A DNA stretch of 64,000 nucleotides from Xenophilus sp. L33 (lineage in GTDB: Bacteria > Pseudomonadota > Gammaproteobacteria > Burkholderiales > Burkholderiaceae_C), in the NCBI RefSeq assembly GCF_009765735.1, contig NZ_LMUW01000186.1, forward strand, positions 1 to 64,000, in the 5' to 3' direction. Made by a program: the position numbers and the translations under genes. Each line of letters begins with the position of its first letter. Position 1 is the first letter of the stretch. The notes under the pieces are model-generated. The model saw nothing but the letters and a program-made list of their open reading frames with translations. It was not told the DNA's origin and did no database searches. This document shows positions 52-32,692 of the stretch, piece after piece.

Positions 52-59
52 GATCCGGC
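52..59. repeat. 8-bp target-site duplication of IS-B, copy 1
   Basis: GATCCGGC abuts the IS-B end at base 51. Its reverse complement GCCGGATC abuts the other end of the complete IS-B at 31726-31733. The two copies form an 8-bp duplication, which fits the IS21 family, although they now lie about 31.7 kb apart in opposite orientation. Confidence 0.85.
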
Positions 60-733
60 ATCCCGAGCACAAGCAGTTCAGCGTGGCCGAGGTGCTCGAG
101 CACGAGCGGGTGCAGTTGATGCCGATGCCCGCCGCCTTCGACGGCTACGTCGAGGAGGTGGCGCGGGTGAGCAGCACCTGCCTGGTGTCGGTGGCGCGCA
201 ACCGCTACTCGGTGCCATGCGAGCTGGCCGGGCAGATGGTCAGCACGCACCTGTACCCGACGCGCGTGACGGTGGTGGCCGGCGATGTGGTCGTGGCCGA
301 GCATGAGCGGCTGACGGACAAGGGCAAGACGCGCTACGACTGGCAGCACTACATCCCGCTGGTGCAGAGGAAGCCTGGGGCGCTGCGCAATGGGGCGCCG
401 TTCGCGGATCTGCCTGAGCCCTTGCAGCGGCTGCGGCGCGCGCTGTTGCGCGAGAGCGGCGGCGACCGCCTGATGGCGCGGGTGCTGGCCCTGGTGCCGA
501 CGGCGGGACTGGAGGCGGTGCTGGTGGCCGTGGAACTGGCGCTGGACGGCGCGCCGCCCTCGGGGCGGGTGAGCGTGGAGCATGTCATCAACGTGCTCGC
601 GCGTCTGAACGCGGCGCCGCGGCCGGCCAATGTGGAAACGCCGCTGCAGGTGCTGACGCCGCCGACCGCTGACACGGCCCGCTACGACCGGCTGCGCGAC
701 CTGAGCAGCCTGAAGGAGACTGGCCATGCGTGA
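60..733 (+). pseudogene. istA: istA 3' fragment (IS-A transposase, C-terminal part)
   Basis: This encodes the C-terminal part of an IS21-type DDE transposase, starting in RHPEHKQFSVAEVLEHER and ending just inside istB. It has no start of its own, because the 5' part (31726-32584, minus strand) was separated from it by the IS-B insertion and a later rearrangement. Joining 859 nt from that fragment to the 674 nt here gives 1533 nt, exactly 511 codons, and the junction reads E-E-I-R-H-P-E without a gap. The catalytic core lies largely in the other fragment, so this piece cannot work alone. Confidence 0.9.
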
Positions 734-1526
734 CGTCATTGCCGAACTCAAGGCGCTGCGCCTGCACGGGATGGCCGGGACCTGGGCCGATCTGATCGAG
801 CAGAACAATGCCGAACTGGAGCGATCGCGCTGGCTGGTCGAGCAGATGCTGCGCGCTGAGACGACCGAGCGCGCCACGCGATCGGTGAGCCACCAGTTGA
901 ACGCGGCCAAGTTCCCGGTGCATCGGGATCTTGCAGGTTTCGACTTCGAGGTCTCGCCAGTCGATCGCAAGCTGGTACTGCAATTGGCGGAAATGAGCTT
1001 CACCGACGAAGCGCACAACGTCGTGTTGGTGGGCGGCCCTGGCACCGGAAAAAGCCATCTTGCGACGGCCATCGGCGTGGCAGGCATCGTGCAGCATGGC
1101 AAGCGCGTGCGCTTCTACTCGACGGTGGACCTAGTCAACGCGCTGGAGCAGGAGAAGGCCCAAGGCAAGGCCGGGCGCATTGCCGCGAGCATGCTTCGCC
1201 TGGACGCGGTGGTGCTCGACGAAATGGGATACCTGCCCTTCAGCCAGGCCGGTGGCGCGCTGCTGTTCCACCTGCTGTCCAAGCTTTACGAGCACACCAG
1301 CGTGGTGGTGACGACCAACCTGGACTTCGCCGAATGGTCCAGCGTGTTCGTGGATCCGAAGATGACCACCGCGTTGTTGGATCGGCTCACGCACCACTGC
1401 CATATCGTGGAGACCGGCAACGAGAGCTACCGCATCACGCATGCCACGGCCAACTCGAAGAAGCGCATCAGGGCTCGCGAACAGGAACGAAAGGAGGCCA
1501 AGGCGCCACCGGCAGACCTCGCCTGA
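726..1526 (+). CDS. istB: IstB-like ATP-binding transposition helper (IS-A)
   Basis: IstB is the AAA+ ATPase that directs the IstA transposase to target DNA. The 266-residue product has a Walker A motif GGPGTGKS near residue 103 and a Walker B stretch [11 protein letters not shown] near residue 160, and ends in a basic tail. Its start overlaps the istA stop by 8 nt, the normal coupled arrangement of the family. The gene looks intact, but its istA partner is split, so it could act only with an IstA supplied elsewhere. Confidence 0.95.
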
Positions 1527-1712
1527 TCAACGCTGCGAAGGGACAAGGCGCTGCGGGCTTCGCCCTCCGCGCCCCCTAAGACCGAACATCAAGAAAAGCA
1601 AGAAAGGAGGAAACAGCTACAGTTATCCACAGCCGGCAACCACGATGCCGGCTTCCATCCCCGGGTCAAAGTTCAACCGGCAGGGTGGGTCAAAGTTCAA
1701 CCGGCGCCGACA

Positions 1713-2983
1713 ATCATGAGCGGCCGCAAGATGCAACGGAGCAGCTGGAAGTCAGCTCGACCCTCGGGAATCAGAAGCGATGGCTGCATGAGCGCACTCA
1801 ACACATCGACGCGGCTGTGCTGGAAGAATTTTCGCTGCCAGTTTGGTGCTGCCGCCGGCAAAGGGGCTTCCAAGAATGGCTCGGCTGACATCGCACCATC
1901 GTGCTTCTTGAGGATCAGCACCGACGTCGGGTCTGCCATGCTCGCGACCAGTGGCGAATGCGTTGTGACGAAAGTCTGCGTCGACAAGGCTTGCACGCGT
2001 TGCACCAAGCGTTGCTGGGCCGAAGGCGGCAAATGAACCTCCGGCTCCTCCAAGGCCATCAAGAATTCACCGCCTGAAGCGGCTCGTGCACGGCCGAGCT
2101 CAAGAAGCAGCAGCAGCCCTTGCATAGACACCAGCCCACTTCCTTGTCTCCCGGCAGGGATGCTGAATCCATCGGATGACGCAAAGTGGGCGGAGACGGC
2201 CTCCATGACCGCGCGACTATCGGTGCCAGTCAATCGGAGTTGAACTTTCGGCGCGTTGGGGAACGAGAGCGCCAATTCATTGTTCAGGTTCTGAATCAGC
2301 GGGGCGATGCCAGGATCCTCATCAATCGGCTGCTCGGGCGCTCGCAGCCGGTCGCGCTCAGCAAGTAGTGCCGTGGCTGGCTGCGCCGCTGCGGCCAAAA
2401 CAGTTCGCTTGAAGAGTTCATTGCCGAAAGAAAACACCTTGTCCCACGTGCGGCTGGCTCTGACCAAATAGAAGCTCAGTTCCTGAATAAGCTTGCCCGG
2501 CACAGGAGCCGGCGGCTCCTCAGTGAAAGGGTCGATCGGCTCGTCGTGATCGTGGAAGTAGCGGAGCACTTCGACTGAAAGAGTCTCGGCGTCAAATCTC
2601 GCCTGCACCGCGATCTGGCAGCAAAGCTTCCAGGCAGGGTCGTCTCGCTGCGGATGCACCGTTCCGGATTCCTCATCCACCCATTTCACTACCGCCCTGC
2701 CGTCCCGGAACCATTGGCTGCTGTGCTCGGGATCGTCGTTCGGAAAATCCGTGATGGTGACCATCAGCCTGATCCGATCTGCTGGCTGCGGACAAGAACC
2801 GTAGAAGTCATGCTCCGTCAACTCTCGGACCAACCGATCTCGCCCGAGCAAGAGAGTCAGCGCTTCGATGAGCGTGGTCTTGCCGGTATTGTTGTCGCCG
2901 ACGAAGACAGGGTGCTTACCGAATCGAATGGAACCAGCACGCACGCCACGGAAGTTTTCGATCTTGAGGTTAGAGACTCGCAT
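1713..2983 (-). pseudogene. OLD-family ATPase/nuclease, C-terminally truncated by IS-A
   Basis: OLD-family proteins join an ABC-type ATPase to a Toprim nuclease and act in phage defence. The start at 2983 (MRVSNLKIENFRG) was chosen over an upstream ATG because the family's conserved N-terminus begins there. The Walker A motif GDNNTGKTT lies near residue 32, an ABC-like EEPEVHLPP near residue 308, and a switch histidine in TTHSPL. The Toprim domain has just begun (LLIPEGRADFQLL) when IS-A interrupts it at 1712, and the frame then stops inside the element at 1697. It lies 112 bp downstream of mcrC as the last gene of the defence string. The ATPase could still fold, but the nuclease is almost certainly lost. 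Confidence 0.85.
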
Positions 2984-3095
2984 TTTTGCTCTTGATTTCC
3001 TGCGTTTCCTGTCGTGGCTGCGCACTCCGATCCAAGTCGGAACGACTATCAAATCGTTCGGGCAGCCGTACTCGAACGATGCTTCTCTACGTCAC

Positions 3096-4448
3096 CTATG
3101 GCAGTGGCTCTAACGTGGGAGGACGAACGTGCGCGGTAAACGTTTTTAGCGGCCGACATTCATCAACAAAGACTGACTGAAGTGTCGAGGAAGCCGGCAA
3201 CTTCAGCGTTCGCTCTTTGAGGCAAAACGGCAGCACCCACAGCCGCATCCCGTTGGCCTTCGGAAAATCAAAGACGGTCAACGGTTCCATGAAGGCATCT
3301 GTCCTTGGGTAGATCAATACGATGTCCCCGGTGCCGTCCAGGTAGTGGTGACCGTAGGCGTACAACTGATAGAAGTTGGCCTGGCTGAGTTGGTATTTCT
3401 CGCGCCCGTTTTTCTTTGCCGCATCCAGCAGCTTCCACTTCGTATCCAGGACCAAGCGCGTGGTTTGCTTCTGCTTTACCAACAGATCGGGCTTCAAGCG
3501 GAACCATCGCTGGTCATCGTGCGCAACGAGGTGCTGGCTGCTTGCCTGTGCCTTCAGGACGAAGTCAGCGCGCAACTGCCTTGCCAAGTGCTTCTCGACA
3601 TAGGCCTCGAACACCGCTTCCATCGGAAACAACAGCGACGGGGCATGGTGACTTCCCATCCCAGAGATAGGGCTGAGACCCTGCAGGATCAGCTTGGCCC
3701 AGTCCAGTGCAGACTCGTAGTAGCCCATCCCTCGATCCAGCCTGATTCGCTGAATGTCTTGGGCAATATCGACTGACGGCGGAACCTCTGAAAAGACAAA
3801 ACTGAGTTCGCGCGCGACACGCTGGCTTTCCTGCGATCGGCACAGGGTCAGAACATGGCGAAGCGCCGTGTGAATCAGGCGGTTCTCTGCACGGTCCTGC
3901 GAAAACTCGTCATGCTCGGTAAAGAACCGGTCACGCCTGACCAGATTCTGGGAGATCTGCCGTGCCACCAACATCCGCCCACGAAGTGCAAAGAGGTTGT
4001 CCTGTCGCACGATATAGTCACTGCGCAGTCCGCGCTTGACGAGCGAACCGACGGCCAACAGGAACTGCTGGATGAACACCTCCAGGAGGGGCATGCGTTC
4101 AGCGACCAAGTCCGCGTTGGCTGTCTTGATGTGCCGAAACCCGGCCAGGCACTTCAACATCTCGATGAGGAGTGCGCGCGCTACTTCAGGCGACGTGTTC
4201 CTGCCGATCTTTGGTAGTACCTCGATCTGAAATCCGCATGGGGCACGAATGACGCCCACATAGCTGGTGACCTGAATCGCCCGCTGGCCGCTCAGTTGGG
4301 TCGGCTTGAGCCAGCCAGGGGCTTCATCGCCATTTCGCAGGGACTGCATGTCCAGCCAAGCGAAGACAAGCCTGGGAACAGCAAGCCCGACCGCTCCGGC
4401 CTTTGCTTCGACGACCTTGTCGAACTCAAAGATCGTCAGGGAATTCAT
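3096..4448 (-). CDS. mcrC: McrC, endonuclease subunit of an McrBC-type restriction system
   Basis: McrC supplies the PD-(D/E)XK nuclease that cuts DNA when McrB translocates on it. The 450-residue product has an N-terminal McrB-contact region and a C-terminal nuclease core with LKPDLL near residue 319 and LVLDTKWK near residue 331, which provide the D...D-x-K residues. Its start overlaps the mcrB stop in an ATGA arrangement, so the two are translationally coupled. Which DNA modification is restricted cannot be read from the sequence. Length and motifs suggest an intact protein. Confidence 0.93.
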   Translation of the reverse strand: MNSLTIFEFDKVVEAKAGAVGLAVPRLVFAWLDMQSLRNGDEAPGWLKPTQLSGQRAIQVTSYVGVIRAPCGFQIEVLPKIGRNTSPEVARALLIEMLKCLAGFRHIKTANADLVAERMPLLEVFIQQFLLAVGSLVKRGLRSDYIVRQDNLFALRGRMLVARQISQNLVRRDRFFTEHDEFSQDRAENRLIHTALRHVLTLCRSQESQRVARELSFVFSEVPPSVDIAQDIQRIRLDRGMGYYESALDWAKLILQGLSPISGMGSHHAPSLLFPMEAVFEAYVEKHLARQLRADFVLKAQASSQHLVAHDDQRWFRLKPDLLVKQKQTTRLVLDTKWKLLDAAKKNGREKYQLSQANFYQLYAYGHHYLDGTGDIVLIYPRTDAFMEPLTVFDFPKANGMRLWVLPFCLKERTLKLPASSTLQSVFVDECRPLKTFTAHVRPPTLEPLP

Positions 4449-6436
4449 CCAGCGGTCACGGCAGGCTTGGCCGCATAGATGCCTACGTAGGCGTCCGGCT
4501 GATCAAGTGCGGCCGCGTTCAACTGGTAGCGAGAACGAATCGCGTACTGATCTAGCTCGTGCTCGCGGCCGAAGAGGGCCAGCAGGTCCTCCTCGCGGCC
4601 GATTTCATGCACGAATTGATGGTCCTGCTTGGCCTTCTGGTTATCGCCCAGAACCAGTCGAATCTTCTGCCAGTCCTCGAAGAAGTATTCCTCCAAGAGC
4701 GGGATGATCTTGTTCCTGAAGACGGTCTTCAGCTCGCTGAACCGATCCGAATCTTTCAGGTCTTTGATCCGCGTGAAGTAGGCATGCCCCACCGTGTGGT
4801 CACGGTCGTACAAGGCCTCGATCCGCTTGTTCAGCATGGTCAGCAGCTGCTCGATGTTGATGTCCACGCCGTTGTGGGAGACGATGGTGCCTGCCAGAAC
4901 CGAGGGCTTGGGCATCGACTCGATGAACTCAAAGCGACGGCGAAGCGCGGTGTCGACCAGTGCCAACGAGCGGTCTGCCGTATTCATCGTCCCGATCACA
5001 TCAACGTTCAACGGCACGCTGAAGCTCTCTGTGGAGTACGGCAACGTCACGGCGACGGGATACTTCGCACCCTCGCGCTTGTCGACTTCTACGAGTGTGA
5101 TGAGCTCGCCGAAGACCTTGCTGATGTTCCCGCGATTGATCTCATCGATCACCATCGCGTACTGCCGCGACGGGTTCTTCCGCGCTCGGTCACACAGCCT
5201 CAAGAACGCGCCTGGTTTGATTTCGTAGCGCACCTCCCCGTTCGACGCGGAGGCTGCCTCGCTGTCCGCAGCACGCTTCTTGCCCCGCTTAGTGATGACG
5301 GGGCGCAGGCCTTCAACAAACTCCTCATACCCATAAGACTGGTGGAAGGTGACGAACTCGTAGCGCTCGCCATATTCGGCATCGGTGTAGTCAGACGCAA
5401 GTACGGCCTGCAAGTCGAACGTCTTTCCGGTGCCGGGCGGGCCGTAGTAGATGACGTTCTTCGGCGGCTTGTCGCTCTTGGTCTCGACCTCAATGTCGTA
5501 GTCGTCGGGCCAGTAGCCGTTGCGTCCAGAGCGCGCCCCAAGCTTGGCGGGCCAACTGCCCTCGTCCTTGTCGGCTGCCTCGAAGAGCTGAACAAGCTCG
5601 CTCGTGAGATCCGTTGGCTCAAGTTCATCCAATCCGGCAAAGGCGGACCAACTGACCCGGATGCCATCCTTGCGTAGGAACAGCCACCCGACTGGCCCGC
5701 CTTTCACCACACTCTTTTCCTTGCGTCCGAAGCGCAGCTGGCTGTTGGTGGCCCGGGTAAACCACCAGTCCAGCCCCATCTCGTTCACTGCGCGGGCAAG
5801 TCGGCCGAAAAGCTCAGTCGTGGTGCTGGTCCACAGCGGCTGTCGTTCAACGAAATCCTCGTGTCCCTTGAAGTGGGCCAACAAGCTCTTGTGGTCCTCT
5901 TCTGCGGACAGGCCCAGCTTATCGGCGACATCGTCGTAGCCGACCTGAAAATTGTTGATGGCTTCCGCGCTCCAATCCACCAGTGCTGTGAAGTCGAGTG
6001 CCAGACCATCCGCGATCGACTTGATGGCGACGATAGGAGACGCTGTGAAGCTGCCGCGAATCTCTTCGTACTTCTTGCGAAGACCGGGGTCGCTGACCTG
6101 GGTGTCGACGAGGTCAATCTTGACGATGAAGCCGAGTGCTGCATCAATGCCTACGGTGTATGCCAAACCCTTGTGGGATTTCTGCTCTGGGTAGATCCGT
6201 GCCCAGTTATAGGCCGTGAACTTCCCACTGCGGTCCGCTGGCTTGCGGACCGTCTTAGTCCACCCATCCTTGAACAGTTGATGTTGCAGCGCCTCGGCCC
6301 AATGCTTGGTGACGTCGTAGGCTTGGCCCAGCTCCTCATAGACGCGCTGTTGCTCCGGGTTGGTCTTGTCATAGACCGTCCCTTTCCATTTGTTCAGCAG
6401 CTTGAAATGGTCGTTGTTGAAATAGTTCTGTGCCAT
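4445..6436 (-). CDS. mcrB: McrB-like AAA+ GTPase of an McrBC-type restriction system
   Basis: McrB hexamers hydrolyse GTP and activate McrC after recognising modified DNA. The 663-residue protein has an N-terminal specificity region of about 300 residues and a C-terminal AAA+ domain with Walker A GPPGTGKT near residue 332, Walker B-like MVIDEINRGN near residue 430, and the McrB signature MNTADRS near residue 485. The N-terminal part does not visibly match the methylcytosine-binding domain of the Escherichia coli protein, so the modification it recognises may differ. It starts 4 bp after the metallopeptidase stop and overlaps mcrC. Confidence 0.92.
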   Translation of the reverse strand: MAQNYFNNDHFKLLNKWKGTVYDKTNPEQQRVYEELGQAYDVTKHWAEALQHQLFKDGWTKTVRKPADRSGKFTAYNWARIYPEQKSHKGLAYTVGIDAALGFIVKIDLVDTQVSDPGLRKKYEEIRGSFTASPIVAIKSIADGLALDFTALVDWSAEAINNFQVGYDDVADKLGLSAEEDHKSLLAHFKGHEDFVERQPLWTSTTTELFGRLARAVNEMGLDWWFTRATNSQLRFGRKEKSVVKGGPVGWLFLRKDGIRVSWSAFAGLDELEPTDLTSELVQLFEAADKDEGSWPAKLGARSGRNGYWPDDYDIEVETKSDKPPKNVIYYGPPGTGKTFDLQAVLASDYTDAEYGERYEFVTFHQSYGYEEFVEGLRPVITKRGKKRAADSEAASASNGEVRYEIKPGAFLRLCDRARKNPSRQYAMVIDEINRGNISKVFGELITLVEVDKREGAKYPVAVTLPYSTESFSVPLNVDVIGTMNTADRSLALVDTALRRRFEFIESMPKPSVLAGTIVSHNGVDINIEQLLTMLNKRIEALYDRDHTVGHAYFTRIKDLKDSDRFSELKTVFRNKIIPLLEEYFFEDWQKIRLVLGDNQKAKQDHQFVHEIGREEDLLALFGREHELDQYAIRSRYQLNAAALDQPDAYVGIYAAKPAVTAG

Positions 6437-6440
6437 CGCC

Positions 6441-7136
6441 TCAAATCCCTTCTACGTCCATGCCGTGTTCGGCCAGCCAGATCTTTCGCCGCTCGAAGTC
6501 AGGCAGTGCGCGTTCGACGCGCTGCCAGAACTCTGGTGTGTGATGCGGTTGATGGAGGTGTGCCAGTTCATGCACCACCACGTACTCGGCAATACGCGGC
6601 GGCAACAGGATGGTTTTCCAGTGGAAATACAGCCAGTCGCCTTTGCCGCATGAGCCCCAGCGGTAGCCCAGGTCCTGCACCTTCAGGCCCACGGGCTGGA
6701 CCTCCATGCGGGCCACGTAATCCTGCACCTTGTCCCACAGCCATGCCCTGGCCCGGGCGCTGTACCACTGAATCAGATTGCCACGCGCGGTATCGACTAG
6801 GTCGCTGCGCAACATGAAACGGCCGTTAAGCAGCTTCAAAGCTGCGTCCTGCTCATCCACCAAGCGCAGCCGGTAGCTTCGACCCAGGTACAGAAAACCC
6901 TCGCCATCGACATAGCTCTTCGTCGGTACTGCCTTCTGCAGGCGATCCTTCTCGGCCAGCTTGGTGTAGATCCAGAAGCGCTTTTCAAGAACGAACTCGC
7001 GCAAACGTTCCTCTTCGACATCAGGCGGTGCGGACAGCACCAGTTCACCGCTTCGATCAACAGTGATCTGCAGCGTTCTGCGCCGACTGCTGGGTTTCAG
7101 CTCGAATGAGAGGTCGTCTACGGTGAGCACGCTCAT
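6441..7136 (-). CDS. YgjP-like zinc metallopeptidase (DUF45) linked to type I restriction genes
   Basis: The 231-residue product has the gluzincin motif HELAHLHQPHH followed by PEFW near residue 190, and the family's YRWGSCG stretch before it, as in YgjP/SprT-like peptidases. Homologues often sit beside type I restriction genes, where their role is not established; turnover of restriction subunits or of DNA-bound proteins is a guess. Its start overlaps the hsdR stop (ATGA), and its stop lies 4 bp before mcrB, so it links the two restriction systems in one transcript. Confidence 0.88.
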   Translation of the reverse strand: MSVLTVDDLSFELKPSSRRRTLQITVDRSGELVLSAPPDVEEERLREFVLEKRFWIYTKLAEKDRLQKAVPTKSYVDGEGFLYLGRSYRLRLVDEQDAALKLLNGRFMLRSDLVDTARGNLIQWYSARARAWLWDKVQDYVARMEVQPVGLKVQDLGYRWGSCGKGDWLYFHWKTILLPPRIAEYVVVHELAHLHQPHHTPEFWQRVERALPDFERRKIWLAEHGMDVEGI

Positions 7137-10100
7137 GCCTTGGTCAACCTCTCATGGTTGGCGCGGGCCAGTTCCAGGATGCGATCTTTCAGGGCGGACA
7201 CATCACCGGGCCCAACCACGCGGGATGTGCGCAGCGTTCTGAAGATGCGTGCCCCTAGAGCGTCTTGTGCTGGCCGCTTGTGTGGCTCCCAGAACGTGTC
7301 GGTCAGTTCACCGGCAATCATGTCGACCAGTTCCACCGTCAGATCGCGAATCTTCAGCAATTGCTCGTCAGACGGGCGCTCGGTGCCCACCACGGCCTCC
7401 AGCAGCATGCGCAGGAACGGCACGTACTGTTCAGGCATGTCGGGCAGGCCAGCGTCATCGCTGGAGGCACCCGCGCGCATGTCGCTGATGATCTTTTGCA
7501 GCGCTGCGATCAGGTCATCCCACTGGTCCGCCAGCGTCTTCAGGATCTCGTTCAGTCGTTCGCTGAGCTTGCGGAACAGCACCGGGTCCTCATCCAGATG
7601 CTTGCGGATGTGCGAGCGGATGGCGTGTTCCATCTCGGACGCCTTAGCGCGGTCGTTCGCCTGGCGCGACAAATGCATGTCGAACTCAGCGTCGGTCAAT
7701 GCAATCGGCGGAATCTTGGGATCGACACCCAGCGAGATCACATGGTCATCGATCAGCTTGCGGACCTTGGCGCCTACATCCTTGCCCAGAACCGGCGTGT
7801 CCTTGTAGCGGTTGCGGGCCCGTGCATAGATGTACGAGAGTGTCTTGGCGTCCTTGGAGAAGGGCAGACCCTCCGGGCGCGGCAACACCATGTCCAGCGA
7901 ACTCAGAAACTGCTTGAGCTTGACGGTGAACTCCGCTCGTAGCCGTTCGTCTGCCAGCACTTCGACGCAGGTCTCCGCGTCATCCAGCAATTCGATGCCG
8001 CGGCTGCGAAACAGGTCCACCACACGCAGGTGCCGATCACGCAGCGCCGGTACTTCGTCTTTCAGGCTTTGCAGTGCCCCCTGAATGTCCTCGTCGGCGT
8101 AGGCCGCCAAGGCTTCCTTCAGGTGCTGGGCCACGCCGTAGTAGTCCACCACGATGCCGCAGCGCTTGCCGAACCCCGTGCGGTTCACCCGGGCAATGGC
8201 CTGCAGCAATTCGGCCTCGCGGATTGGGCGGTCGAGGTACATCACCCCTTCAATCGGCGCATCGAAGCCGGTCAACAGCATCGACTTCACGACCAGGAAG
8301 GCAAGTGCGTCGGTCTTCTCTGGCTTGGTGTGGAACAGCGGCTTCTTGAAGCGCTTAATCCTCGTCTCGTTGGCCGCCGCATCCGTCCATTGCTTCCAGG
8401 CCGGATCGTCGTTGTTGCTGCCGGAGATCACTGCCGCGAACTCGATGTTTTTCAGCGTGGCGCGGTAGCGCCAGGCCTGCACGATGGCCTGAACCTTGGG
8501 CGGCCGCTGGCACAGCGCCTCGTCGTCCAGCGCCTTATCTTCGGGCGGCAGCGCGTCAACCTCGGTGAGCAGTTCGGCGCGTGCGGCTTCAAACGCAGCT
8601 ACGTAACGCACCGCCGCCAGGCGGCTGTAGGCCACCACCTGCGCCTTGTAGCCGTTGGGCAGGATGCTGGTCACATAATGGCGCAGCATGTCGCGCGCCT
8701 TGTCCGCGATCAGCAGCGGGGCGTCGAAGATCGGGCCCCTGGTGGCGTACTTCTGCTTGATCGCCTCCAGTTCCTCGGCACTGCGATCGCGGAACAGGTC
8801 CTCAAACAGCTCGTCCAAGCTGGCCCCGTTTTTGACCGCACCTTGCGCCGTGCGTCCTTCATACAGCACGGGAACGGTCGCGCCGTCTTCCTCGGCCTCT
8901 TTGATCGTGTAGCGGTCGATGAACTCGCCGAAGATCTCGTGGGTGCGCTTCTTGTCACCCATGATGATCGGCGTGCCGGTAAAGCCGATGCGCGCGCAGT
9001 TGGGCAGCCCGGCCAGCAGGTTGGCGTGCAGGTCACCCGCCTGGGTGCGGTGCGCCTCATCGACGAGCACCAGGATGGTCTCGTCCTCGTTCAAAACTTC
9101 GAACGTCTTCGCCGCAGACTTGACCCCATAGGCTGCCGCCGCAGGCTCTTTCACGCCCATCTGCCCGTCTTGCCAGCCGTCCGGAATGTCGTCCTCGGTC
9201 AAGCCCGGTTCACCGGCGGTGTCCGGGTCACGGTACTTCTGGATTGTGGCGAACAGCAGCCCAGGTCCCTTGCGGCGCGCAAGCTTCTGCACGGCCACCG
9301 TCGACGTAGCCACTTCCACGACCTCACCGGTCAAGGTCGCCGTGGCACTGAGCTGGTCCTGCAGGTCTTTGCGGTCGGTGACCACCACCACTTTGAAACG
9401 GCGCAAGGCGGCGTTGGTCCGCAACTTGCGCACCAGGAACACCATGGTCAGCGACTTGCCCGAACCCTGGGTGTGCCAGATCACGCCACCGCGTCGGTCG
9501 TGCTCGCCATCTTGCAGGCGGGTCTGTCCGCTTTGCAGGCGCTCAATCGCCTTATTGACCGCGCGGAACTGCTGATAGCGGCATGCCACCTTGATGGTCT
9601 GCCCACCGGCCTGCATGAACAGGGTGAAGTGGCGAATGATGTCCAGCAGGTTTGCCTTGTTGAGCATGCCCGCCACCATCCGCTGCTGCTCGGACAGCGC
9701 GGCCAGCCCCAGGCTGGCGGCAACGTCCTCTTCGCGCGCCGGGGTCACGGTCTTCCAACTGGCGAAGTGCTCGAACAGGCCGCCGATAGTGCCCACCCGC
9801 GCCTCGTCGAAGCTAGATGCAATCAGCAGCTGGTTGGTGAAGAACAGCGGCTCGTTGCCCTCGTTGTCTTCCACCTCGTAGTTGGCATGCCGCTGGTTGC
9901 TGTAGCGGCGCAACTGGTCGATGGCTTCAGCCAACGACTCGGGGACGGACGGGCTCTTGCACTCCACCACCACCAGCGGAATGCCGTTCACCAGCAACAC
10001 CAGGTCCGGCACGATGAAGGCCTTGCCGCTGTTGTAACCCGGCGGGCAATCTACGCGGTACTGGTTGACGACCGTGAAGGTGTTGTTCTCGGGCGTATCC

Positions 10101-10471: not shown

Positions 10472-10487
10472 GGTCTGGCCCTTCTGT

Positions 10488-18070: not shown

Positions 18071-18074
18071 GTCA

Positions 18075-19487: not shown

Positions 19488-19582
19488 TGAAATCAACAAC
19501 TTACATCAGCCGCAATTGCGGGACTTCGCCGCAATTCACCGCAAAGCGCGGTGCCTTGTGAGAGCTTGAGGTTTTTGAAACC

Positions 19583-22130: not shown

Positions 22131-22139
22131 GGCGCGGGA

Positions 22140-23933: not shown

Positions 23934-23950
23934 TTTTTGCTCCTTCCGGT

Positions 23951-24070
23951 GGTGTTGGTTCATCCAACACCCCTGATTTGAAATGCTGGCGCCCGGCCAA
24001 CATCGAAAGATTTTCAGGGTGTTGGATGAACCAACACCTGACTTACAGCGGTGTTGGTTCATCCAACACT
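23951..24070. promoter_or_regulatory. Three parS-like palindromes between parA and parB
   Basis: The near-perfect palindrome GTGTTGGTTCATCCAACAC occurs at 23952-23970 and 24051-24069, and its inverse GTGTTGGATGAACCAACAC at 24019-24037. Each has 7-bp inverted arms around a 5-bp centre. Placement in the parA-parB gap and triple occurrence suggest a centromere (parS) and possibly an operator for parB. The third copy lies against the parA stop codon. Confidence 0.82.
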
Positions 24071-25260: not shown

Positions 25261-25782
25261 GTGGTCAGACTTTCAAAATCCGCGCGTGTTTGCGCAAGTT
25301 GAACGAATCGTACAACATCCGTAGAACTAAACGAAATACGTCTGCGGTATTGCTTGAGTTGACCAATCGAACTCCGCGAAGCGAAGGAGTTTCTAAGTCC
25401 TTCAACCCCTTTAATTCCTTCAGCACTGATTTCCTGAATGCTGACAACTACTTAGCGGAAAAGATGGAGCCGCAATGGGCCGTTCCGGAGCTTTTCTGGT
25501 CATCTTCGGCGTGGATCTGGGCTTGGCCGGAGCCCCCTTGGGTGACCATATCCACTCCGTCTCTCAACGGGGCGTGGTCTACCTGGTGTGGCCGCCAGTA
25601 CGGCCGTGCAACAGGGGAGGCCGCTGTGTCGAAAGGACGTCTCGTCACTTGGCTTGGCGCCAGATGTGAGCCTTTTTGGTCATTCTCGTTGACCTTCACG
25701 TGAGCCTTTTGGTCATTCTGCCGGGCGACTTCGAACTGTGAGACACGTTTCACATGAATTGACTTCGTGTAGAGTTCCCGTC
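25261..25782. repeat. Presumed replication origin region with iteron-like repeats
   Basis: The 522 bp between parA and rep contain TGAGCCTTTTTGGTCATTCT at 25667-25686 and the near copy TGAGCCTTTTGGTCATTCT at 25701-25719. A weaker relative, GGAGCTTTTCTGGTCATCTT, lies at 25487-25506. The first two start 34 bp apart, about three helical turns. Placement just upstream of a Rep gene suggests Rep-binding iterons and/or rep autoregulation. The left part (25265-25450) is less GC-rich and may be the melting region. Confidence 0.55.
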
Positions 25783-27108
25783 ATGACATTTGCTCGTCCG
25801 CAGCAACCCGCGATCGTGCGCAAGCCCGTTGAGACGCTGTCGCTCGTGCCCACCTCCGGCAAGGTCACAGTTCTTGGCCGCAAGACGTGGAACGTACTGC
25901 TTCATCTGGCTCAGGATCAAGCCATCGAGGGCCAGGACACGTACAGGGCGACTTTGGCAGACGTCGTTGCGGGCATCGACTTCAATTCCCGCAACCTGTC
26001 GATCATCAAGGGGCACCTACGCGCCCTCATGGCTACGACGGTCGAGTGGCAGTCCCCGACAGCTGGCGAGGGCGAGCGGTGGGACGGTTGCAGCATGCTT
26101 GCGCATGCCTCACTCGAGACTGTGCGGGGCCAGACTTGGGTGGAGTGGAGCTATGCACCTAACGTCCGCGGCGAGTTGCTCAACCCGAATATCTTTGCGC
26201 GGCTCAACTTGAACGTGATCTCAGAACTTCGAACGATCGCGGCAGTCGCCCTCTACGAGTCGTGCGCCAGGTACAAGGCAGTGGGGCAGACCGGGCGCAA
26301 GCCATGGCGATGGTGGGCGCCCGTTCTCCTAGGGCGACCGGACGACGATTTGCAAAAGCTGGACTACCGATTCTTCAAGCGCGACACGCTCCGTCCTGCA
26401 ATCGCTGAGATCAACGCGGTGTCGGACATCGAAGTGGACCTGCTCGAACACAAGCAAGGACGCTTCGTGAATGAGCTGCAGTTCACCGTCAAAGAGAAGC
26501 GACGCCATGCAGCGCGCGATTTGGCTTCTACCAAGCCGGTCAATCTTGCCTTGGTTGGACGCGCAGCTGCCATTGACATCGATCAAGCCAAGTTCGAGCG
26601 CCTGTTGGATGAATATGGAGAGGATTTGGTCACCCACGCCCTGGAAGCGGTGGAGCGCCGAATGCAGTCGGCGTTTCCGGAGCCATTGCGGGACCCGCAT
26701 CGCTTCTTGAAGACGGTCCTCGCCAATACAGGTAGCATCCAGGTTGAGCCCATGCCAGCCATTCGCGAGGAGAAGGCCATCGCAGTTGAGTCTGCCCCGT
26801 CTCCGCCGCCGCTGCGCGCGATCGAGGCGCAGGACGACCGTGAGCGTCGCAACTGGATCGAAGCTCGTCGTCGCACTGTTGCGGCCCAATTGGAGCTTCT
26901 GAACGAGCAGGCTCAGGCGGACCTCCAAGAAGCATTCGCGCAGGAGCTCATCCGAACAGACACACACCCAAGCATCCTCAAGCGGCTGAAGCAGAGTGGT
27001 TGGCGTCATCAAATTGTCCGCCACCTGATGGTCGACTTCTACGCGTCTCAGACACTTGGGCCGGACTGGGATCAGCCGACTGCTAATCAGTTGCTGGTGA
27101 CGGACTAG
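25783..27108 (+). CDS. rep: Plasmid replication initiator (RepB/Rep_3-like winged-helix protein)
   Basis: The 441-residue protein begins MTFARPQQPAIVRKPVETLS at 25783; an upstream ATG at 25738 is open but would cross the likely promoter. It has two winged-helix-like parts, with RKTWNVLLHLAQ early and ISELRTIAAVALYESCARYK, RPAIAEINAVSDIEVDL in the middle, the pattern of Rep_3-type initiators that bind iterons. The C-terminal 150 residues are helical and charged. Position beside parAB and repeat sequences supports the role. It is divergent from parA. Confidence 0.85.
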   Translation: MTFARPQQPAIVRKPVETLSLVPTSGKVTVLGRKTWNVLLHLAQDQAIEGQDTYRATLADVVAGIDFNSRNLSIIKGHLRALMATTVEWQSPTAGEGERWDGCSMLAHASLETVRGQTWVEWSYAPNVRGELLNPNIFARLNLNVISELRTIAAVALYESCARYKAVGQTGRKPWRWWAPVLLGRPDDDLQKLDYRFFKRDTLRPAIAEINAVSDIEVDLLEHKQGRFVNELQFTVKEKRRHAARDLASTKPVNLALVGRAAAIDIDQAKFERLLDEYGEDLVTHALEAVERRMQSAFPEPLRDPHRFLKTVLANTGSIQVEPMPAIREEKAIAVESAPSPPPLRAIEAQDDRERRNWIEARRRTVAAQLELLNEQAQADLQEAFAQELIRTDTHPSILKRLKQSGWRHQIVRHLMVDFYASQTLGPDWDQPTANQLLVTD

Positions 27109-27348
27109 ATCGAAGCCCTAAGGGCCATCCAAACCAAGTTGTGGGCTTGGCTCCTGCGTACACGGGTTGGGAGGAGGGCAGGGCACTCGTCGGAGCGGCT
27201 TGCAAGCGAAGCCGAAGTAAAGCATGCTGGACCGAGGTGGATCCGAGGCTAAAACGTGTTTAATATGTGGTTCAAACTTGTGACAGAGGCGTCTTGAGGT
27301 TAAACTTTCCGGCTCAGGGAAGAAGCCCCTTTGCAAGAGGAGTGCGCG
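27109..27348. other. Gap between rep and the toxin-antitoxin pair
   Basis: The 240 bp show no convincing gene. A 223-codon frame on the opposite strand crosses this gap, but it is mostly an antisense shadow of the antitoxin gene. The stretch 27255-27300 (TGTTTAATATGTGG and nearby) is relatively AT-rich and may carry the promoter of the next gene. Confidence 0.4.
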
Positions 27349-27762
27349 ATGCCAACCCCCAGTGGACTTTTTGACTCCGTGCCTCAGGACGCCTTTCAGT
27401 TTGGCTATGGCCCGTACTTCGACGCGCGCAAGGTGTCGGATGCACTGCGCTTGAAGAAGGAAGACGTGTCGCATTTGGCCTCGGTGTCCGTCAAGTCCGT
27501 GCGCTATGACGATGCCATCCCAGAGCAGATGCGCGAAAGATTGGCCGAGATCGCCAACACCATGAACATGGTCGCAGCGACTTTCGACGGCGACGTCGCC
27601 AAGGCGGCGACCTGGTTCTTGACGCGCAATCCCCTCCTGGGCGACATCTCGCCACGGGACATGATTCGCCTTGGGCGCTATGAACGGCTGCGGCGCTTCA
27701 TCGTGTCTGCCATGCGCGAGCGCGACACGCCGCAACGTTACGAACACACAGCGGCTGCCTGA
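27349..27762 (+). CDS. Xre/MbcA/ParS-type antitoxin (DUF2384-like)
   Basis: The 137-residue product starts at 27349 behind AAGAGGAG. It has an N-terminal helical HTH-like part (LRLKKEDVSHLASVSVKSVRY) and a C-terminal block with AATWFLTRNPLLGDISPRDMIR, the pattern of antitoxins that pair with RES-domain toxins. Such proteins bind their toxin and repress the operon. The toxin gene follows 20 bp downstream. The antitoxin appears intact. Confidence 0.88.
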   Translation: MPTPSGLFDSVPQDAFQFGYGPYFDARKVSDALRLKKEDVSHLASVSVKSVRYDDAIPEQMRERLAEIANTMNMVAATFDGDVAKAATWFLTRNPLLGDISPRDMIRLGRYERLRRFIVSAMRERDTPQRYEHTAAA

Positions 27763-27782
27763 CGTCTCGCCGACCCCGAGAC

Positions 27783-28744
27783 GTGCCAAAGAGAAAAATA
27801 CCGTTCCCTGTCCCAGCTCCGGCTCCCGGCTTACCGGGGCTGCTCGAACTTGACCGTTTTACGCCGCCACGCTCGAGAAGTGGACCGAAGCGTCCCGCGA
27901 CATCGACCAGCTCAGCGCCTCGCTGTTCTTCGAAACGGAACCTGAACGCAGGCGATATCGCGAGGATTTGATAGAGGTCCTTCGACAAGCCCCAGGTGCA
28001 TCGCTGGAGTTGCGCGACTGGGCGAGGATCGTCACCTATCGCTACAGCCTTGCACCCCTGTCGAGCGCCGGCAGTCTTCACAGCATTGGTGGACGTTTCA
28101 ATGCGGGCATCGACCTAGATGACGGCACTCTTTCGGCTTGGCCGGCGCTTTATATGGCCGAGGACTACGAGACTGCCTTCCGAGAAAAATTCCAGCTGGC
28201 GTCCGACCACGTGAACAACGGCTTGAGTGCTCAGGACCTGGCCTTGACACCCGGCGCCAGCCACGCCGCGGTAATGTTGCGCGGCAGGCTGACGAACGTC
28301 TTCTCACTGAACGATGATGAATGTCTGAAGGGCATCTGCAGCGTCTTCAGGCGCATCAAGATGCCCGCAACCGCCAAGCGACTGCAGAAGAAGCTCAGGA
28401 TTCCGAACAGGGATAACTTCATGATCCGCTCGCCGTTTCAACTGAGGCGGGCAGTGTTGGCAAGCAACTGGCGGCTGCAGCCCGTGCAGTTCGGAATGCC
28501 TGCGCCCAGCCAAATCCTCGCTGAGTTGATTCGCGCGGCCGGCTTCGAAGGCGTGCTGTACGAGAGCACCAAGGGCCCGTGCCGCTGCCTTGCACTTTTT
28601 CCTGACGTTCTCCTTGACGGATCGTTTGTGGAACTGGCGGACCCCGCGCCCGCCGCGATTCAACATACTCGGCTGGATTGCACGACGGCCGACGCACTTT
28701 GCGGGTGGGATGACATCGCCAAGCAGATGCGTCCGAGCGCATAG
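27783..28744 (+). pseudogene. RES-domain toxin gene with a -1 frameshift
   Basis: RES toxins degrade NAD+ and are neutralised by Xre/MbcA antitoxins. A GTG start at 27783 opens PKRKIPFPVPAPAPG and runs to LLELDRF. The frame then shifts at the TTTT run (27857-27860), and coding continues as FYAATLEKWTEASRDIDQL through RYREDLIEVLRQ into the RES domain (YRYSLAP, GGRFNAG, ALYMAEDYETAFREKF). One extra T would give a single 320-residue frame. As written, the only continuous frame containing the RES core starts at TTG 27968 (258 residues). It may be inactivated, may use the inner start, or the base may be a sequencing error. Confidence 0.85.
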
Positions 28745-29130
28745 CCTTGTCTCGCTTGCAAACGGGCAAGCGACACCCGAGAGGCCTTGGGCGCCAATGC
28801 GGTCCTTCACCTTGAATTGGCGAAAGAAAGACTGCTGGCGCAACGTGCCTCTGCCATCGAGCGTCTCTTCGCGCGGCGCTGACGTCGACCCGCCCGACCC
28901 AGTGCTCAATTTGCAGGCAACTTGGCAGAAATGACCGGCGGGCGCCAGGTGCGGCGCGGCGTCCCCAACTTATCCAAATGCCTGGCAAAACTTCGGGCGT
29001 GCGCACGAGTTATTGCCCGGCTTCAGTGGCGCAGTTCAGCGAATTACGTCGCCAATGGTGTGTTCATTGTTTCGGTGCTCCCGAAATCGGTCGGCGATCG
29101 CCGCACTGGCGTCGACCGCCGACATCCTGG
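28745..29130. other. Non-coding stretch between the toxin gene and IS-B
   Basis: I see no recognisable gene in these 386 bp. Short frames on the plus strand (for example 28978-29208) run into IS-B and have no recognisable motifs. The last eight bases before the element, CATCCTGG at 29123-29130, would be one half of a target duplication whose partner should lie beside the off-window IS-B copy. Confidence 0.5.
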
Positions 29131-29284
29131 CCCCGAACGACACGCAAACTCCCCCACCTATCGACAGGTAAATTCCCCCACCCCAGCCGTCAGGCTGTGA
29201 TGGTGTAGGCGGCGCCGGTTCTACCGGCAGTCGCCTCGGGCAGGACGTTACTTTCTATCCCCTCGGCCACGAGGGGAGTACGGA

Positions 29285-30898
29285 GTGAATGTCTTGAAGC
29301 CGCATTTGCAGACGACCATTTGGACCCTGTTGGCCGCGAAGGCCAGCCAGAGGGAGATCGAGCGTGTCACGGGCATCGATCGCAAGACGATCCGGGGATA
29401 CCAGAAGCGGTTTGCTGCTGCGGCAGCAAATTCCCCCGGGGTGTCTACCGGCCCTCAGGCGCAAATTCCCCCACCCTGTCTACCGGCTCCGTTGCCGCCG
29501 AGATCACCCGGAGCGATCTCGGCGTGCGAGCCGCACCGCGGCTTCATCGAAGCGCAACTGCGGCTTCGGCGCAACGCCATGGCCATCTACCAGGATCTGG
29601 TCGACCAGCACGGCTTCACCGCCGGCTACGAGTCGGTGATGCGCTTCGCACGCAAGCTTCGAGATCACGAGCCCGAGCAATTCGATCGACTGGAGTTTCT
29701 CCCAGGAGAGGAGATGCAGGTCGACTACGGCGAGGGCGCGCCCACGCGCGTGCCGGGCACCGACCGGTATCGCAAACCGCGGCTGTTCGTGGCGACTCTG
29801 CGCTATTCCCGGCGCAGCTTCCGGCGCGTCGTATGGAAGTCCAGCCAGGAGACCTGGGCTCGGTTGCACGAGCAGGCGTGGCGCTACTTCGGCGGCAGTT
29901 GCCGATACGTCGTGCTGGACAACCTCAAGGAGGGCGTCATCAAGCCCGATTTGTATGAGCCGCAATTGAACTCCGTCTACGCGACCACGCTGGCCCACTA
30001 CGGCGTGGTCGCCGACCCGGCCAGGGTCCGAGACCCCAATCGCAAGGGAACCGTGGAGAACGCGATCGGCCACACACAGGCCACCGCCTTGAAGGGGCGG
30101 CGCTTCGAGTCGCTACAGGAGCAGAACGACTTCCTGGAGCACTGGGAGAGCAGGTGGGCCGCCTTGCGCATCCATGGCAGCGCGCGTCGCCAAGTGCAGG
30201 CAATGTACGAGGAGGAGCGGCCGCTGCTGCAGCCGGTGCCACCGCAGGGCATGCAGTACTTTACCGAGTCGCAGCGCACCGTGTGCGACGACAGCTGCGT
30301 GCGCGTCGATCACAGCAGCTACGCCGCGCGGCCGGCGCCCATCGGAAGCCATGTGCTGGTGCGCGTGTTCGAGCACCGCATCGAGATCCGTGACCTGAGG
30401 ACGCAGGCGCTGCTTCGCAGCCACGCCCGCGTTGATCGCCCTGGCACCGTCGTCTTGCCGATGGCCGAGCGCGTGTTCAATCCTTCGCGCGAGACTCGGC
30501 GCATCCTGATGCAGGCCAAGGCGATCGGCAACGATGCCGAGCGTCTGTGCGAGTTGCTGTTCGCCGTCGAAGGCCGCGTGGGACAGCGCAAGCTCTGGGG
30601 CATCGTTCGCCTGGCCGATCGCTACCCGCGCCGCCTCGTCGACCGCGCCTGCGCGCAGGCGATGGTCGATGGCATCCACAGCTACAGCTACGTCAAGAAG
30701 CTGACCGAGAAGATCGTCGCCGACGCGCTGGCGGCGATCGACTGTGCCGAAGGATCGCGCCAGATGGAGCTCACGCTGACCCAGGAGCATCCGCTGATCC
30801 GGCCCGCCGACATCTACGCCGAGTTGTTCTCCCGCTGTGCCGCAACACAGCCTTCCTTGCCCCTGACCCATGGAGGTACCGAGCATGACCATCACTGA
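29285..30898 (+). CDS. istA: IstA-like transposase (IS-B)
   Basis: The 537-residue protein starts at a GTG behind GGGGAG. It has an N-terminal helix-turn-helix (SQREIERVTGIDRKTIRGYQ) and an RNase H-like DDE core: aspartate in EMQVDYGEGAP near residue 145, aspartate in VVLDNLKEG near residue 215, and glutamate in RKGTVENAIGH near residue 257. It catalyses strand cutting and joining at the element's ends. The stop lies just after the istB start, so translation is coupled. Confidence 0.96.
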   Translation: MNVLKPHLQTTIWTLLAAKASQREIERVTGIDRKTIRGYQKRFAAAAANSPGVSTGPQAQIPPPCLPAPLPPRSPGAISACEPHRGFIEAQLRLRRNAMAIYQDLVDQHGFTAGYESVMRFARKLRDHEPEQFDRLEFLPGEEMQVDYGEGAPTRVPGTDRYRKPRLFVATLRYSRRSFRRVVWKSSQETWARLHEQAWRYFGGSCRYVVLDNLKEGVIKPDLYEPQLNSVYATTLAHYGVVADPARVRDPNRKGTVENAIGHTQATALKGRRFESLQEQNDFLEHWESRWAALRIHGSARRQVQAMYEEERPLLQPVPPQGMQYFTESQRTVCDDSCVRVDHSSYAARPAPIGSHVLVRVFEHRIEIRDLRTQALLRSHARVDRPGTVVLPMAERVFNPSRETRRILMQAKAIGNDAERLCELLFAVEGRVGQRKLWGIVRLADRYPRRLVDRACAQAMVDGIHSYSYVKKLTEKIVADALAAIDCAEGSRQMELTLTQEHPLIRPADIYAELFSRCAATQPSLPLTHGGTEHDHH

Positions 30899-31646
30899 GA
30901 TCGAACGCGCGCTGCGCGAACTGCGCCTGTCGGGCATCGCCGCGACCCTGAACACCCGGGTCATGCAGGCACAGTCCTCCCAGCAGCCGCTGCTGGAGAC
31001 ACTTGCCGGATTGCTGCAAGACGAACTCGACCGGCGCCATTCGCGCTTGACCGAACGTCGCTTCAAACAGTCGCGCCTGGACGAGCGGCCCACGCTGGGC
31101 GACTTCGACTGGCGCTTCAACCCCAAGCTGCCGCGTCAGGCCTGCTTCGAGCTGCACACGCTGAAGTTCATCGCTGACGGCGCCAACGCGCTGATCATTG
31201 GCAAACCCGGCACGGGTAAAAGCCACATCGCCAAGGCCGTGGCCTACCAGGCCACGCTCCAGGGCCACGACGTCCGATACGTCGAGGCTGACACCGAGTT
31301 CGCCCACTTCGCACTGGCCAGCCCAAAGGAGCAGACGGCGATGATGCGCGCCTACATCGAATCCGATCTGCTTGTACTCGACGACCTGTTCCTGGCGCGA
31401 CGCATCTCGGACACCGCCGCCGAGCTGCTGCAGGCCGTCGTGCATCGGCGCTACAAGCGTCGCGGCAGCATCGTCGTGACCTCCAACCGCGTCGTTCAGG
31501 ACTGGGGCAAATACCTCGGCGACGCAACCATGGGAACGACGATCCTTGATCGACTGATGCATCGCGCCGTCATGCTCGAGTTCGAAGGAAAGAGCTACCG
31601 ACTGAAGGAGGCCGCCGCACGCCTGGCGATCGCAGCCGAGGCTTGA
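30885..31646 (+). CDS. istB: IstB-like ATP-binding transposition helper (IS-B)
   Basis: The 253-residue AAA+ protein starts at 30885 behind GGAGGT; an in-frame ATG 15 bp upstream lies within that site and is less likely. The Walker A motif GKPGTGKSHIA lies near residue 103 and Walker B LLVLDDLFLARR near residue 162. It selects and prepares target DNA for IstA. The gene overlaps istA by 14 nt and looks functional. Confidence 0.95.
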   Translation: MTITEIERALRELRLSGIAATLNTRVMQAQSSQQPLLETLAGLLQDELDRRHSRLTERRFKQSRLDERPTLGDFDWRFNPKLPRQACFELHTLKFIADGANALIIGKPGTGKSHIAKAVAYQATLQGHDVRYVEADTEFAHFALASPKEQTAMMRAYIESDLLVLDDLFLARRISDTAAELLQAVVHRRYKRRGSIVVTSNRVVQDWGKYLGDATMGTTILDRLMHRAVMLEFEGKSYRLKEAAARLAIAAEA

Positions 31647-31725
31647 TCGATCAATAATGCAATCCTCTCCCTGCCGGAGGAATTTACGTGCCTACAGGTG
31701 GAGGAGTTTGAAGTGTCGTTCGGGG

Positions 31726-31733
31726 GCCGGATC
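31726..31733. repeat. 8-bp target-site duplication of IS-B, copy 2
   Basis: GCCGGATC abuts the right end of IS-B. It matches, in reverse complement, the eight bases at 52-59 next to the other IS-B copy. The bases belong to the istA coding sequence of IS-A. Confidence 0.85.
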
Positions 31734-32584
31734 TCCTCCCACAGCGCCCGGCAGCGTTCGCCCAGCCAGGCATTGAGCTCGTCGAAGCTGGCGAAGCGCC
31801 GCTCACGCGCGTCGATCCAGATGCGCCGGCGACTGTCCTGCACGTTCTTCTCGACCACCCCCTTCTCCCAACCAGAGGCCACGTTGCAGAAGTCGGGGTC
31901 GTACAGGTAGTGCGCGCACATCACCGAGAAGCGGGCGTTGACGGTGCGACCCTTGCCCTTGTGGACCTTGTCCACAGCCGTCTTCATGTTGTCGTAGATG
32001 CCGCGGCGCGCCACCCCGCCCAGCGCCGCGAAGGATCTCGTATGGGCGTCGAACAGCATCTCGTGCCCCTGGCTCGGATACGCCACAAGGAAGAACGCGC
32101 GGCTCGCACACAGCTTCAGATGGGCGACCTGCAGCTTGCGGTAGATCCCCCCGATCACCAGCGCCTCCTCGCTCCAGTCGAACTGGAATGCCTCGCCCAA
32201 CTCGAAGGCCAGCGGCACGAACGCCTTGCCAACCGCAACGCCGCCCTGGCCAGCGCGCCAGGCACGGATGAAGTCGGTCAGTTGGGTGTAGCCGCCTTCG
32301 TAGCCGGCTTCGGCAAGCTGCAGCAGCAGCGCCCGCGCCGTTCGCCGCTCCTTCTTCGGGCGGCGCGCATCGGCCAACAATGCCAGCTCCACCATCTCGA
32401 CGAAGGGCGTCAGCTTCACCGGCGCCGCGCGGCGCTCGTACTTCGGCACCTGCGCCACCGGCGCTCGCAGGTACTTTCTCACCGTGTTGCGCGACAGGCT
32501 CGTCGCCCTCGCAATCTCTCGCACCGATTTGCTCTCGCGGTGGTGCATCCGCAGGACCTTGCCAATCATGGCCATGGTGATCAT
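31726..32584 (-). pseudogene. istA: istA 5' fragment (IS-A transposase, N-terminal part)
   Basis: The fragment encodes about 286 residues of an IS21 transposase: a helix-turn-helix (SVREIARATSLSRNTVRKYL), the first DDE aspartate in FQFDWSEEA near residue 140, a second in IYDNMKTAVDKV, and a glutamate in KGVVEKNVQDSRR. It is cut after WEEIR by IS-B, and the frame then runs into that element. The C-terminal remainder is at 60-733; together they make one 510-residue frame. Confidence 0.92.
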
Positions 32585-32692
32585 TCCTGGTATCCCGCCG
32601 CTTAAAAAAGCAGCAGGGTAGGCTGAACACCCGGGTCAAATTTGAACCGGCACAACCCTCACAGGTGGGTCAATTTTCGGCCGGCGCCAACA

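Follow-up and report, generated by a model that had tools for sequence, protein, structure and literature searches.

A draft join through an IS21-family element most likely accounts for an apparent 29-kb inversion in Xenophilus sp. L33

Introduction

The part of PMC5771137 that deals with short-read bacterial assemblies describes contigs that break at repeats, including IS elements, and long repeats that lead to misassembled loci; it also tells of a finished reference genome in which three of four rrn operons had been wrongly assembled, large sections being shifted and turned round once it was re-sequenced. Inversion at inverted repeats is itself well established (PMC7478630). For nested IS elements a close parallel is found in Variovorax sp. 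WDL1 plasmid 4, where a relative of one of the elements studied here has an annotated IS3 transposase lying between the N-terminal part of istA and the remaining istA and istB. Searches of the literature found nothing on the present plasmid by name and nothing on inversion involving IS21/IstB.

Here, we analyse a 64,000-nucleotide stretch (the window) of Xenophilus sp. L33, in which an initial annotation had proposed that recombination between two IS-B copies inverted positions 52-29130 and split an IS21 element, IS-A, into distant halves. The window is C99:1-64000, and its base 1 is base 1 of that 96,108-bp contig, one of 224 in a draft assembly. We propose instead, with a probability of about 0.77, that an ordinary nested insertion was accompanied by a second, inverted IS-B copy, and that C99 was misjoined through the collapsed repeat. 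The claimed 29-kb inversion, which rests on a draft join through a repeat that short reads could not resolve, is thus most likely not real. We draw a distinction from the repeat-induced misjoins in the part of PMC5771137 cited above: those were recognised by re-sequencing, whereas the present case is built on target-duplication pairing and contig stubs.

Results

Table 1. Features of the window, with coordinates from base 1 of C99
Feature	Position	Strand	Remarks
IS-B left (istA-side) end stub	1..51	-	100% inverted match to 29131-29181; C99 starts here
IS-A, istB-side part	52..1712	+	istA C-terminal half to 733, istB 726-1526, terminal repeat ends 1712
IS-B copy 1 target duplication, one copy	52..59	+	GATCCGGC; reverse complement of 31726-31733, 8/8
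AAA_15/OLD-like ATPase gene, truncated by IS-A	1713..3052	-	Pfam AAA_15; ORF listed from 1697, within IS-A
Defence-type genes	3096..18070	-	McrC-like, AAA_5, YgjP-like, HsdR, HsdS, HsdM, DprA-like, DEAD helicase (Pfam)
Phage-integrase-family tyrosine recombinase	20199..22130	-	with DUF3701 (Pfam)
parB, parA	22920..25260	-	parB 22920-24062, parA 24070-25260; Pfam ParB_N, AAA_31
Rep3-type replication initiator	25738..27108	+	Pfam Rep3_C / Rep3_N
IS-B copy 2 target duplication	29123..29130	+	CATCCTGG; partner on C111, 8/8 against flank of right-end stub
IS-B	29131..31725	+	2,595 bp; sole fully assembled copy among at least four
IS-B istA and istB	29285-30898 and 30870-31646		NCBIfam transpos_IS21 and IS21_help_AAA, both over cut-off
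IS-A, istA-side part	31726..32692	-	istA N-terminal half 31726-32584, terminal repeat ends 32692
IS-B copy 1 target duplication, other copy	31726..31733	-	8/8 partner of 52-59

Both elements belong to the IS21 family. IS-B has istA and istB, inverted terminal repeats (both ends start CCCCGAACGACAC, with 19 of 30 bases alike ungapped) and short target duplications of 7-8 bp, all as in IS21-family elements, and nothing unusual was found in it; its IstA scores 254.8 bits against NF033546 (cut-off 160) and its IstB 218.7 bits against NF038214 (cut-off 200). Its closest relative among plasmid records lies on plasmid 3 of Variovorax sp. WDL1 and matches 99% of the length of IS-B at 82.8%. IS-A likewise has istA, istB and terminal repeats, and its IstB reaches 269.9 bits against NF038214, over the NCBI cut-off for IS21.

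Much of what had been claimed for the split element stands. The two istA pieces, of 859 nt (31726-32584) and 674 nt (60-733), add up to 1,533 nt or 511 codons with the stop, a total that is arithmetic alone, the halves having been kept apart in the alignments. Against an intact Cupriavidus IstA (507 aa) they cover residues 1-283 and 282-505, and against a Methylibium IstA (506 aa) residues 1-283 and 282-493; as the alignments meet at 282-283, the two halves abut. Together with the perfect 8-bp duplication at the split, which had also been noted, this bears out the insertion of IS-B into the istA of IS-A. The ends of IS-A itself fall at 1712 and 32692, the second in agreement with the end coordinate first given. 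Each IS-B end adjoins the expected half, the stub at 1-51 lying by the C-terminal one and the end at 31725 by the N-terminal one, and the second IS-B end does lie in the opposite orientation, seen as the 51-base stub at the start of C99 only. Compared with other nested IS elements, the sole difference is the order of the IS-A halves, and this is the order as drawn only.

No target duplication was found at the outer ends of IS-A (flanks ...TTGACGGG before and ATCATGAG after). A homologue of the truncated ATPase, in L038, extends about 169 aa beyond the truncation, and a search of the organism's own assembly for the missing C-terminal part returned one match, the known junction itself. The absent outer duplication and the roughly 169 residues not found in the assembly point to an older deletion at IS-A. 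For the same two reasons, its outer flanks gave no help in orienting the segment. The assembly yielded no second IS-A: besides the query itself, one search gave six partial matches (68-85%) among the best 40 of 292 candidates and another two (81-82%) among the best 40 of 227.

The segment between the IS-A halves carries the genes of a replicon that looks like a plasmid of a soil bacterium. A homologue of rep in Variovorax ginsengisoli is 74% identical, and homologues of the recombinase, 67-68% identical, adjoin parAB in WDL1 plasmid 4 and in SRS16 plasmid 3. Within the defence-type genes, the AAA_5 gene is McrB-like by its position.

How many IS-B copies does the genome hold? When the best 40 of 369 first-look candidates were scored, at least eight IS-B ends were found, hence at least four copies; one copy is whole, and six of the eight ends are stubs, 51-52 bases long, where a contig ends or a scaffold gap lies. 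All eight pair off one-to-one by target duplication, with common runs of 8, 8, 7 and 7 bases in the four pairs (the two 7-base runs with the element edge shifted by one base), against at most 2 bases in the other 12 left/right combinations; under the same rule a run of at least 7 arises in about 0.02% of random 8-mer pairs. Paired in this way, the four copies give four ordinary insertions. The one join whose flanking duplications mismatch is the join that C99 makes through IS-B. The remaining copies sit on C75/C123 and C158/C120; the C123 flank of copy 3 matches an annotated istB of WDL1 plasmid 4 (72%).

The assembly bears the marks of short reads. In 784,385 assembly bases examined there are 16 runs of N, 11 of them 10-11 long and five 243-362 long, and scaffold gaps of this size, 10-362 N, point to a library with short inserts. 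A self-comparison of these bases at 98% identity or above gave 15 matches, of which 14 are exact, 51-52 bases long and, without exception, touch a scaffold gap or the end of a contig, the pattern that a de Bruijn assembly would leave; the remaining one is 272 bp at 98.5% identity. The SSU rRNA has a single match in the assembly. The self-comparison of the draft also picked out a repeat in C169.

Would such reads tell the two layouts apart? Inverted and non-inverted layouts contain the same multisets of subsequences at all eight lengths tested from 53 to 2,596 bases, and differ at all five tested from 2,597 to 3,000 bases. In the non-inverted layout both IS-B copies have a duplication pair that matches, with no rearrangement needed, whereas in the inverted layout, as drawn in C99, the duplications are swapped between the copies.

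Gene order in a relative also bears on the question. In WDL1 plasmid 4, after the homologues of the integrase, parB, parA and rep genes of C99 come those of C111:5198-6532 (74%) and C111:9.7-12.3 kb (57-81%), with the relative strand unchanged. This order agrees with the non-inverted layout and differs from the drawn one, although it is that of a relative rather than of the present molecule, and the synteny ends at about C111:12.3 kb. A V. ginsengisoli contig has rep-parA-parB in common, and over the 21 kb examined nothing in it matched C111. Searching three flanks in 101 genomes (its own included) gave matches in 8, 15 and 37 of them and in no relative the junction adjacency; among these genomes the best other match was 74%, in one fragmented genome, for 27900-29130, 75% in one genome for 1709-3100, and about 220 bases at 84% for 32692-34200.

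Discussion

On the reading that we favour, nested insertion with a misjoin, IS-B would have transposed four times or more, always by simple insertion and with 7-8 bp of the target duplicated. Copy 1 would have entered the istA of IS-A, and copy 2 a site some 29 kb away in the opposite orientation. The draft assembly would have collapsed the four IS-B copies into one, and the path written as C99 would enter the collapsed IS-B by the left flank of copy 2 and leave it by the right flank of copy 1, so that 52-29130 would be wrongly oriented relative to 31726 onwards. The true order would probably be the far end of C99 to 31726 (reverse complement), IS-B copy 1, C99:52-29130, IS-B copy 2 and C111, and we infer that the present molecule keeps this non-inverted order.

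A true inversion, in which recombination between inverted IS-B copies flipped 52-29130, either fixed or in a mixed population and with C111 to the left of base 1, is unlikely. It accords with the assembled path and with the IS-B ends at the left, which are inverted and identical over 51 assembled bases, and the far flank that it predicts, CCAGGATG, is indeed present on C111, next to a stub of the right end of IS-B. That much of the original prediction held, but the non-inverted layout predicts the same flank; as both histories give the same contig ends, the far flank cannot separate an inversion from a misjoin, and we have dropped it as a discriminator. The rest of the sequence evidence is likewise predicted equally without an inversion, which requires one more event and runs counter to the order in the related plasmid, and the claim that 52-29130 is now inverted is not supported. 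Still less probable is that in living cells the segment flips, and with it the rep, par, recombinase and restriction genes, giving a plasmid mixture of two orientations in which IS-A is alternately split and rejoined.

Against the misjoin reading stands the unbroken path that the assembler wrote through IS-B. Paths through repeats are not always wrong, since an IS-B relative in C199 has assembled flanks that match over 5-6 bp (ACTGG/ACTGGC, by reading); apart from this copy, the only end of it found was a right-end stub at C199:1. For an IS1182-family element in C111, which has two additional stubs, no pairing of the ends gave a duplication, and it favours neither layout.

For IS26-type elements, replicative transposition would yield the same final structure as an inversion by recombination. 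A one-step intramolecular event of this kind, taking IS-B from IS-A to the CATCCTGG site, inverting the segment and splitting both duplications, is very improbable: it draws no more support than the inversion itself, its mode is an assumption for the IS21 family, and the flanks of copies 3 and 4 match, as they do in simple insertions. Least probable of all is that the C99 and C111 flanks lie on separate molecules, with the duplications arising from IS-B-mediated cointegrate formation or replicon exchange, as the spread of IS-B over several contigs (C75/C123 and C158/C120 as well) might allow, for the homologues of C111 and C99 genes stand in corresponding order on one record, WDL1 plasmid 4.

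With C99 read as a misjoin, the structure reduces to an ordinary nested insertion. Pairing by target duplication, along with one related plasmid, indicates the likely contig neighbours C99-C111, C75-C123 and C158-C120. The significance of the locus is mainly one of caution: when a gene is split and its target duplications match in opposite orientation, an inversion seems well proven, but a misjoin gives the same pattern where a window begins at a contig end within a multi-copy element.

Results and discussion

By our own estimates, the chances are roughly three in four that C99, a 96,108-bp contig whose bases 1-64000 form the window (in a draft genome of 6.92 Mb and 224 contigs), is misjoined through the IS21-family element IS-B, and this is likelier than a present inversion of the ~29-kb segment 52-29130, which we consider improbable. 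As the initial annotation accurately observed, IS-B lies within a second, split IS21-family element, IS-A, whose istA pieces (674 + 859 nt) make 511 codons, stop counted. Against an intact IstA of 507 aa from Cupriavidus, the 674-nt half aligns to residues 282-505 and the 859-nt half to 1-283 when each is used alone. Bases 52-59, the flank of the IS-B stub (an IS-B end left at a contig end or scaffold gap), are the exact reverse complement of 31726-31733, so positions 52 and 31726 were once the two sides of one IS-B insertion. IS-B is thus nested in IS-A by insertion, and IS-B ends bound the segment on both sides in inverted orientation.

Elements, IS-B end stubs and homologues on Variovorax sp. 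WDL1 plasmid 4
Feature	Position	Remarks
IS-B	29131-31725	2,595 bp; istA and istB reading frames score above NCBI's IS21 cut-offs
IS-A, C-terminal istA half, istB, one terminus	52-1712	
IS-A, N-terminal istA half, other terminus	31726-32692	minus strand
IS-B left-end stubs	C99:1, C158:1, C75:1	51-52 element bases
IS-B right-end stubs	C111:1, C123:1, C120:327891-327941 (then 312 N)	51-52 element bases
C99 integrase, parB, parA homologues	WDL1 plasmid 4, 16-6056	
C99 rep homologue	WDL1 plasmid 4, 206059-207333	
C111:5198-6532 homologue, ArdC-like zincin protein	WDL1 plasmid 4, 200885-202192	74% identity
C111:9.7-12.3 kb homologues	WDL1 plasmid 4, 190412-198436	57-81%

The segment carries Rep3, ParA, ParB, tyrosine recombinase and restriction genes, and to its right lie CoA-transferase, AMP-ligase, thiolase and transport genes (Pfam, 30 proteins selected from the window's ORF list); no drug-resistance family is named among the matches listed for these proteins. 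A compact defence-type stretch on this plasmid-like, rep/par-bearing segment (3096-18070) holds a McrC-like and AAA_5 pair, type I restriction HsdR/S/M, a DprA-like protein and a DEAD helicase. The closest named relatives of the window are plasmids of Variovorax and other Comamonadaceae, and one Variovorax ginsengisoli contig, which makes Variovorax or a near relative the probable host.

Copies of IS-B

Of 369 first-look candidates in a genome search with IS-B, the best 40 were scored, giving 18 matches: the full copy in C99, a 78% relative in C199, six end stubs and 10 short or weak cross-matches. We compared the 8-base flank of each of the four left ends of IS-B with that of each of the four right ends (4 x 4), permitting a shift of one base. 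C99:52 shares a run of 8 with C99:31726 (copy 1), as does C99:29130 with C111 (copy 2); C75 with C123 (copy 3) and C158 with C120 (copy 4) share 7, and the remaining 12 combinations 2 or fewer. Given this one-to-one pairing, all four copies look, from their flanks, like simple insertions. The IS-B assembled in C99 is a mismatched join, with the left flank of copy 2 on one side and copy 1's right flank on the other.

Copy 4 lies within a virB11-like gene (C120:327891-328578 and C158:52-260); in separate scans with the VirB11 model TIGR02788, the C158 and C120 flanks give matches at positions 1-39 and 42-222, each under the model's whole-protein cut-off, as expected for gene pieces. The C120 scaffold resumes with what we read as VirB10-like fragments 312 N past the stub, where a full IS-B would need more than 2.5 kb; this short gap could come from cells in the sequenced culture whose allele carries no IS, or from faulty scaffolding. 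C75 (4,055 bp), with an IS-B stub at one end, an IS1182-family stub at the other and a stretch matching IS-A's istB-side end at 85%, is another IS nest.

Inverted and non-inverted layouts

The inverted layout runs from the reverse complement of C111 through that of IS-B to C99:52..29130, IS-B and C99:31726 onwards; the non-inverted layout differs in having 52..29130 reversed, and restores both target duplications. We constructed both from C99:52-70000 and C111:53-40000 and compared their multisets of subsequences on both strands, which are identical at lengths 53, 150, 300, 600, 1000, 2000, 2595 and 2596; at 2597, 2598, 2605, 2613 and 3000 they are not. The initial annotation had claimed an IS-B-mediated inversion and predicted a copy of IS-B to the left of base 1 with CCAGGATG next to its far end. 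That flank is found, but since the layouts share their subsequences at every length tested up to 2596 it cannot choose between them, and it supports a present inversion no more than the non-inverted layout.

The assembly itself probably cannot know which layout is right. De Bruijn assembly that breaks at a repeat leaves a near-constant overlap. In 784,385 bases of the 6.92 Mb (two contigs reading as all N excluded), we counted 16 N runs, 11 of length 10-11 and five of 243-362, and none of kilobase size. Self-comparison of these bases (BLAST, at least 98% identity) gave 15 matches, of which 14 are exact, 51-52 bases long and each at a contig end or scaffold gap; the other is 272 bp at 98.5%. 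SSU rRNA has a single match in the assembly. It lies at C18:22218-23982, 1,765 bases against a 1,533-position model, with two 10-N gaps inside. Large repeat-associated misassemblies, inverted sections included, are known from finished bacterial genomes (PMC5771137), and in 88 of 1,295 complete ESKAPE genomes the arrangement around rRNA operons was judged biologically invalid, likely through misassembly (PMC7478630).

Two observations weaken the view that the assembly could not know the layout. The flanks of the assembled C199 relative of IS-B match over 5-6 bp, so the assembler's repeat paths are not all wrong. The view is also weakened by an IS1182-family element in C111 (NF033551), which, like IS-B, is whole at one place with stubs elsewhere, yet has no target duplication in any flank pairing. 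The C199 relative (C199:1-52 and 22697-22748) has one left end and two right ends, in the C199 interior and at its start, possibly because the element occurs in tandem or as a circle, or because a small contig was lost.

Gene order on relatives

Variovorax sp. WDL1 plasmid 4 (207,894 bp) is labelled linear, with parA at its opening and rep at its close; taking these as neighbours assumes a circular record. With the best ORF retained per place, the integrase/par/rep homologues are followed by the C111 homologues on one relative strand throughout, although the C111 homology is patchy, ends at about C111:12.3 kb and gives the order of one relative. This rep-to-C111 neighbourhood is what the non-inverted layout predicts, whereas the inverted one would put C111 on the other side of the 29-kb segment. 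Matches elsewhere involve C111's type IV secretion genes (24-38%) and an H-NS-like ORF (64%). The V. ginsengisoli contig has rep-parA-parB in common with C99, and none of the C111 genes in the 21 kb compared. WDL1 plasmid 4 also holds a close IS-A relative (NZ_LR594692.1, 34188-37962; IstB 97% identical) with an annotated IS3-family transposase inside.

A probable older deletion at IS-A

Comparison of both flanks of IS-A, the second from 32693 onwards, finds no target duplication at its own ends. At 1713 it cuts an AAA_15/OLD-like ATPase gene (1697-3052), whose homologue in one relative is ~169 residues longer, and a search of the assembly for the missing part returned only the junction. Since IS-A lacks a duplication and this part was not found in the assembly, the older REARRANGEMENT is likely an IS-A-associated deletion, the sole rearrangement beyond insertion with support here.
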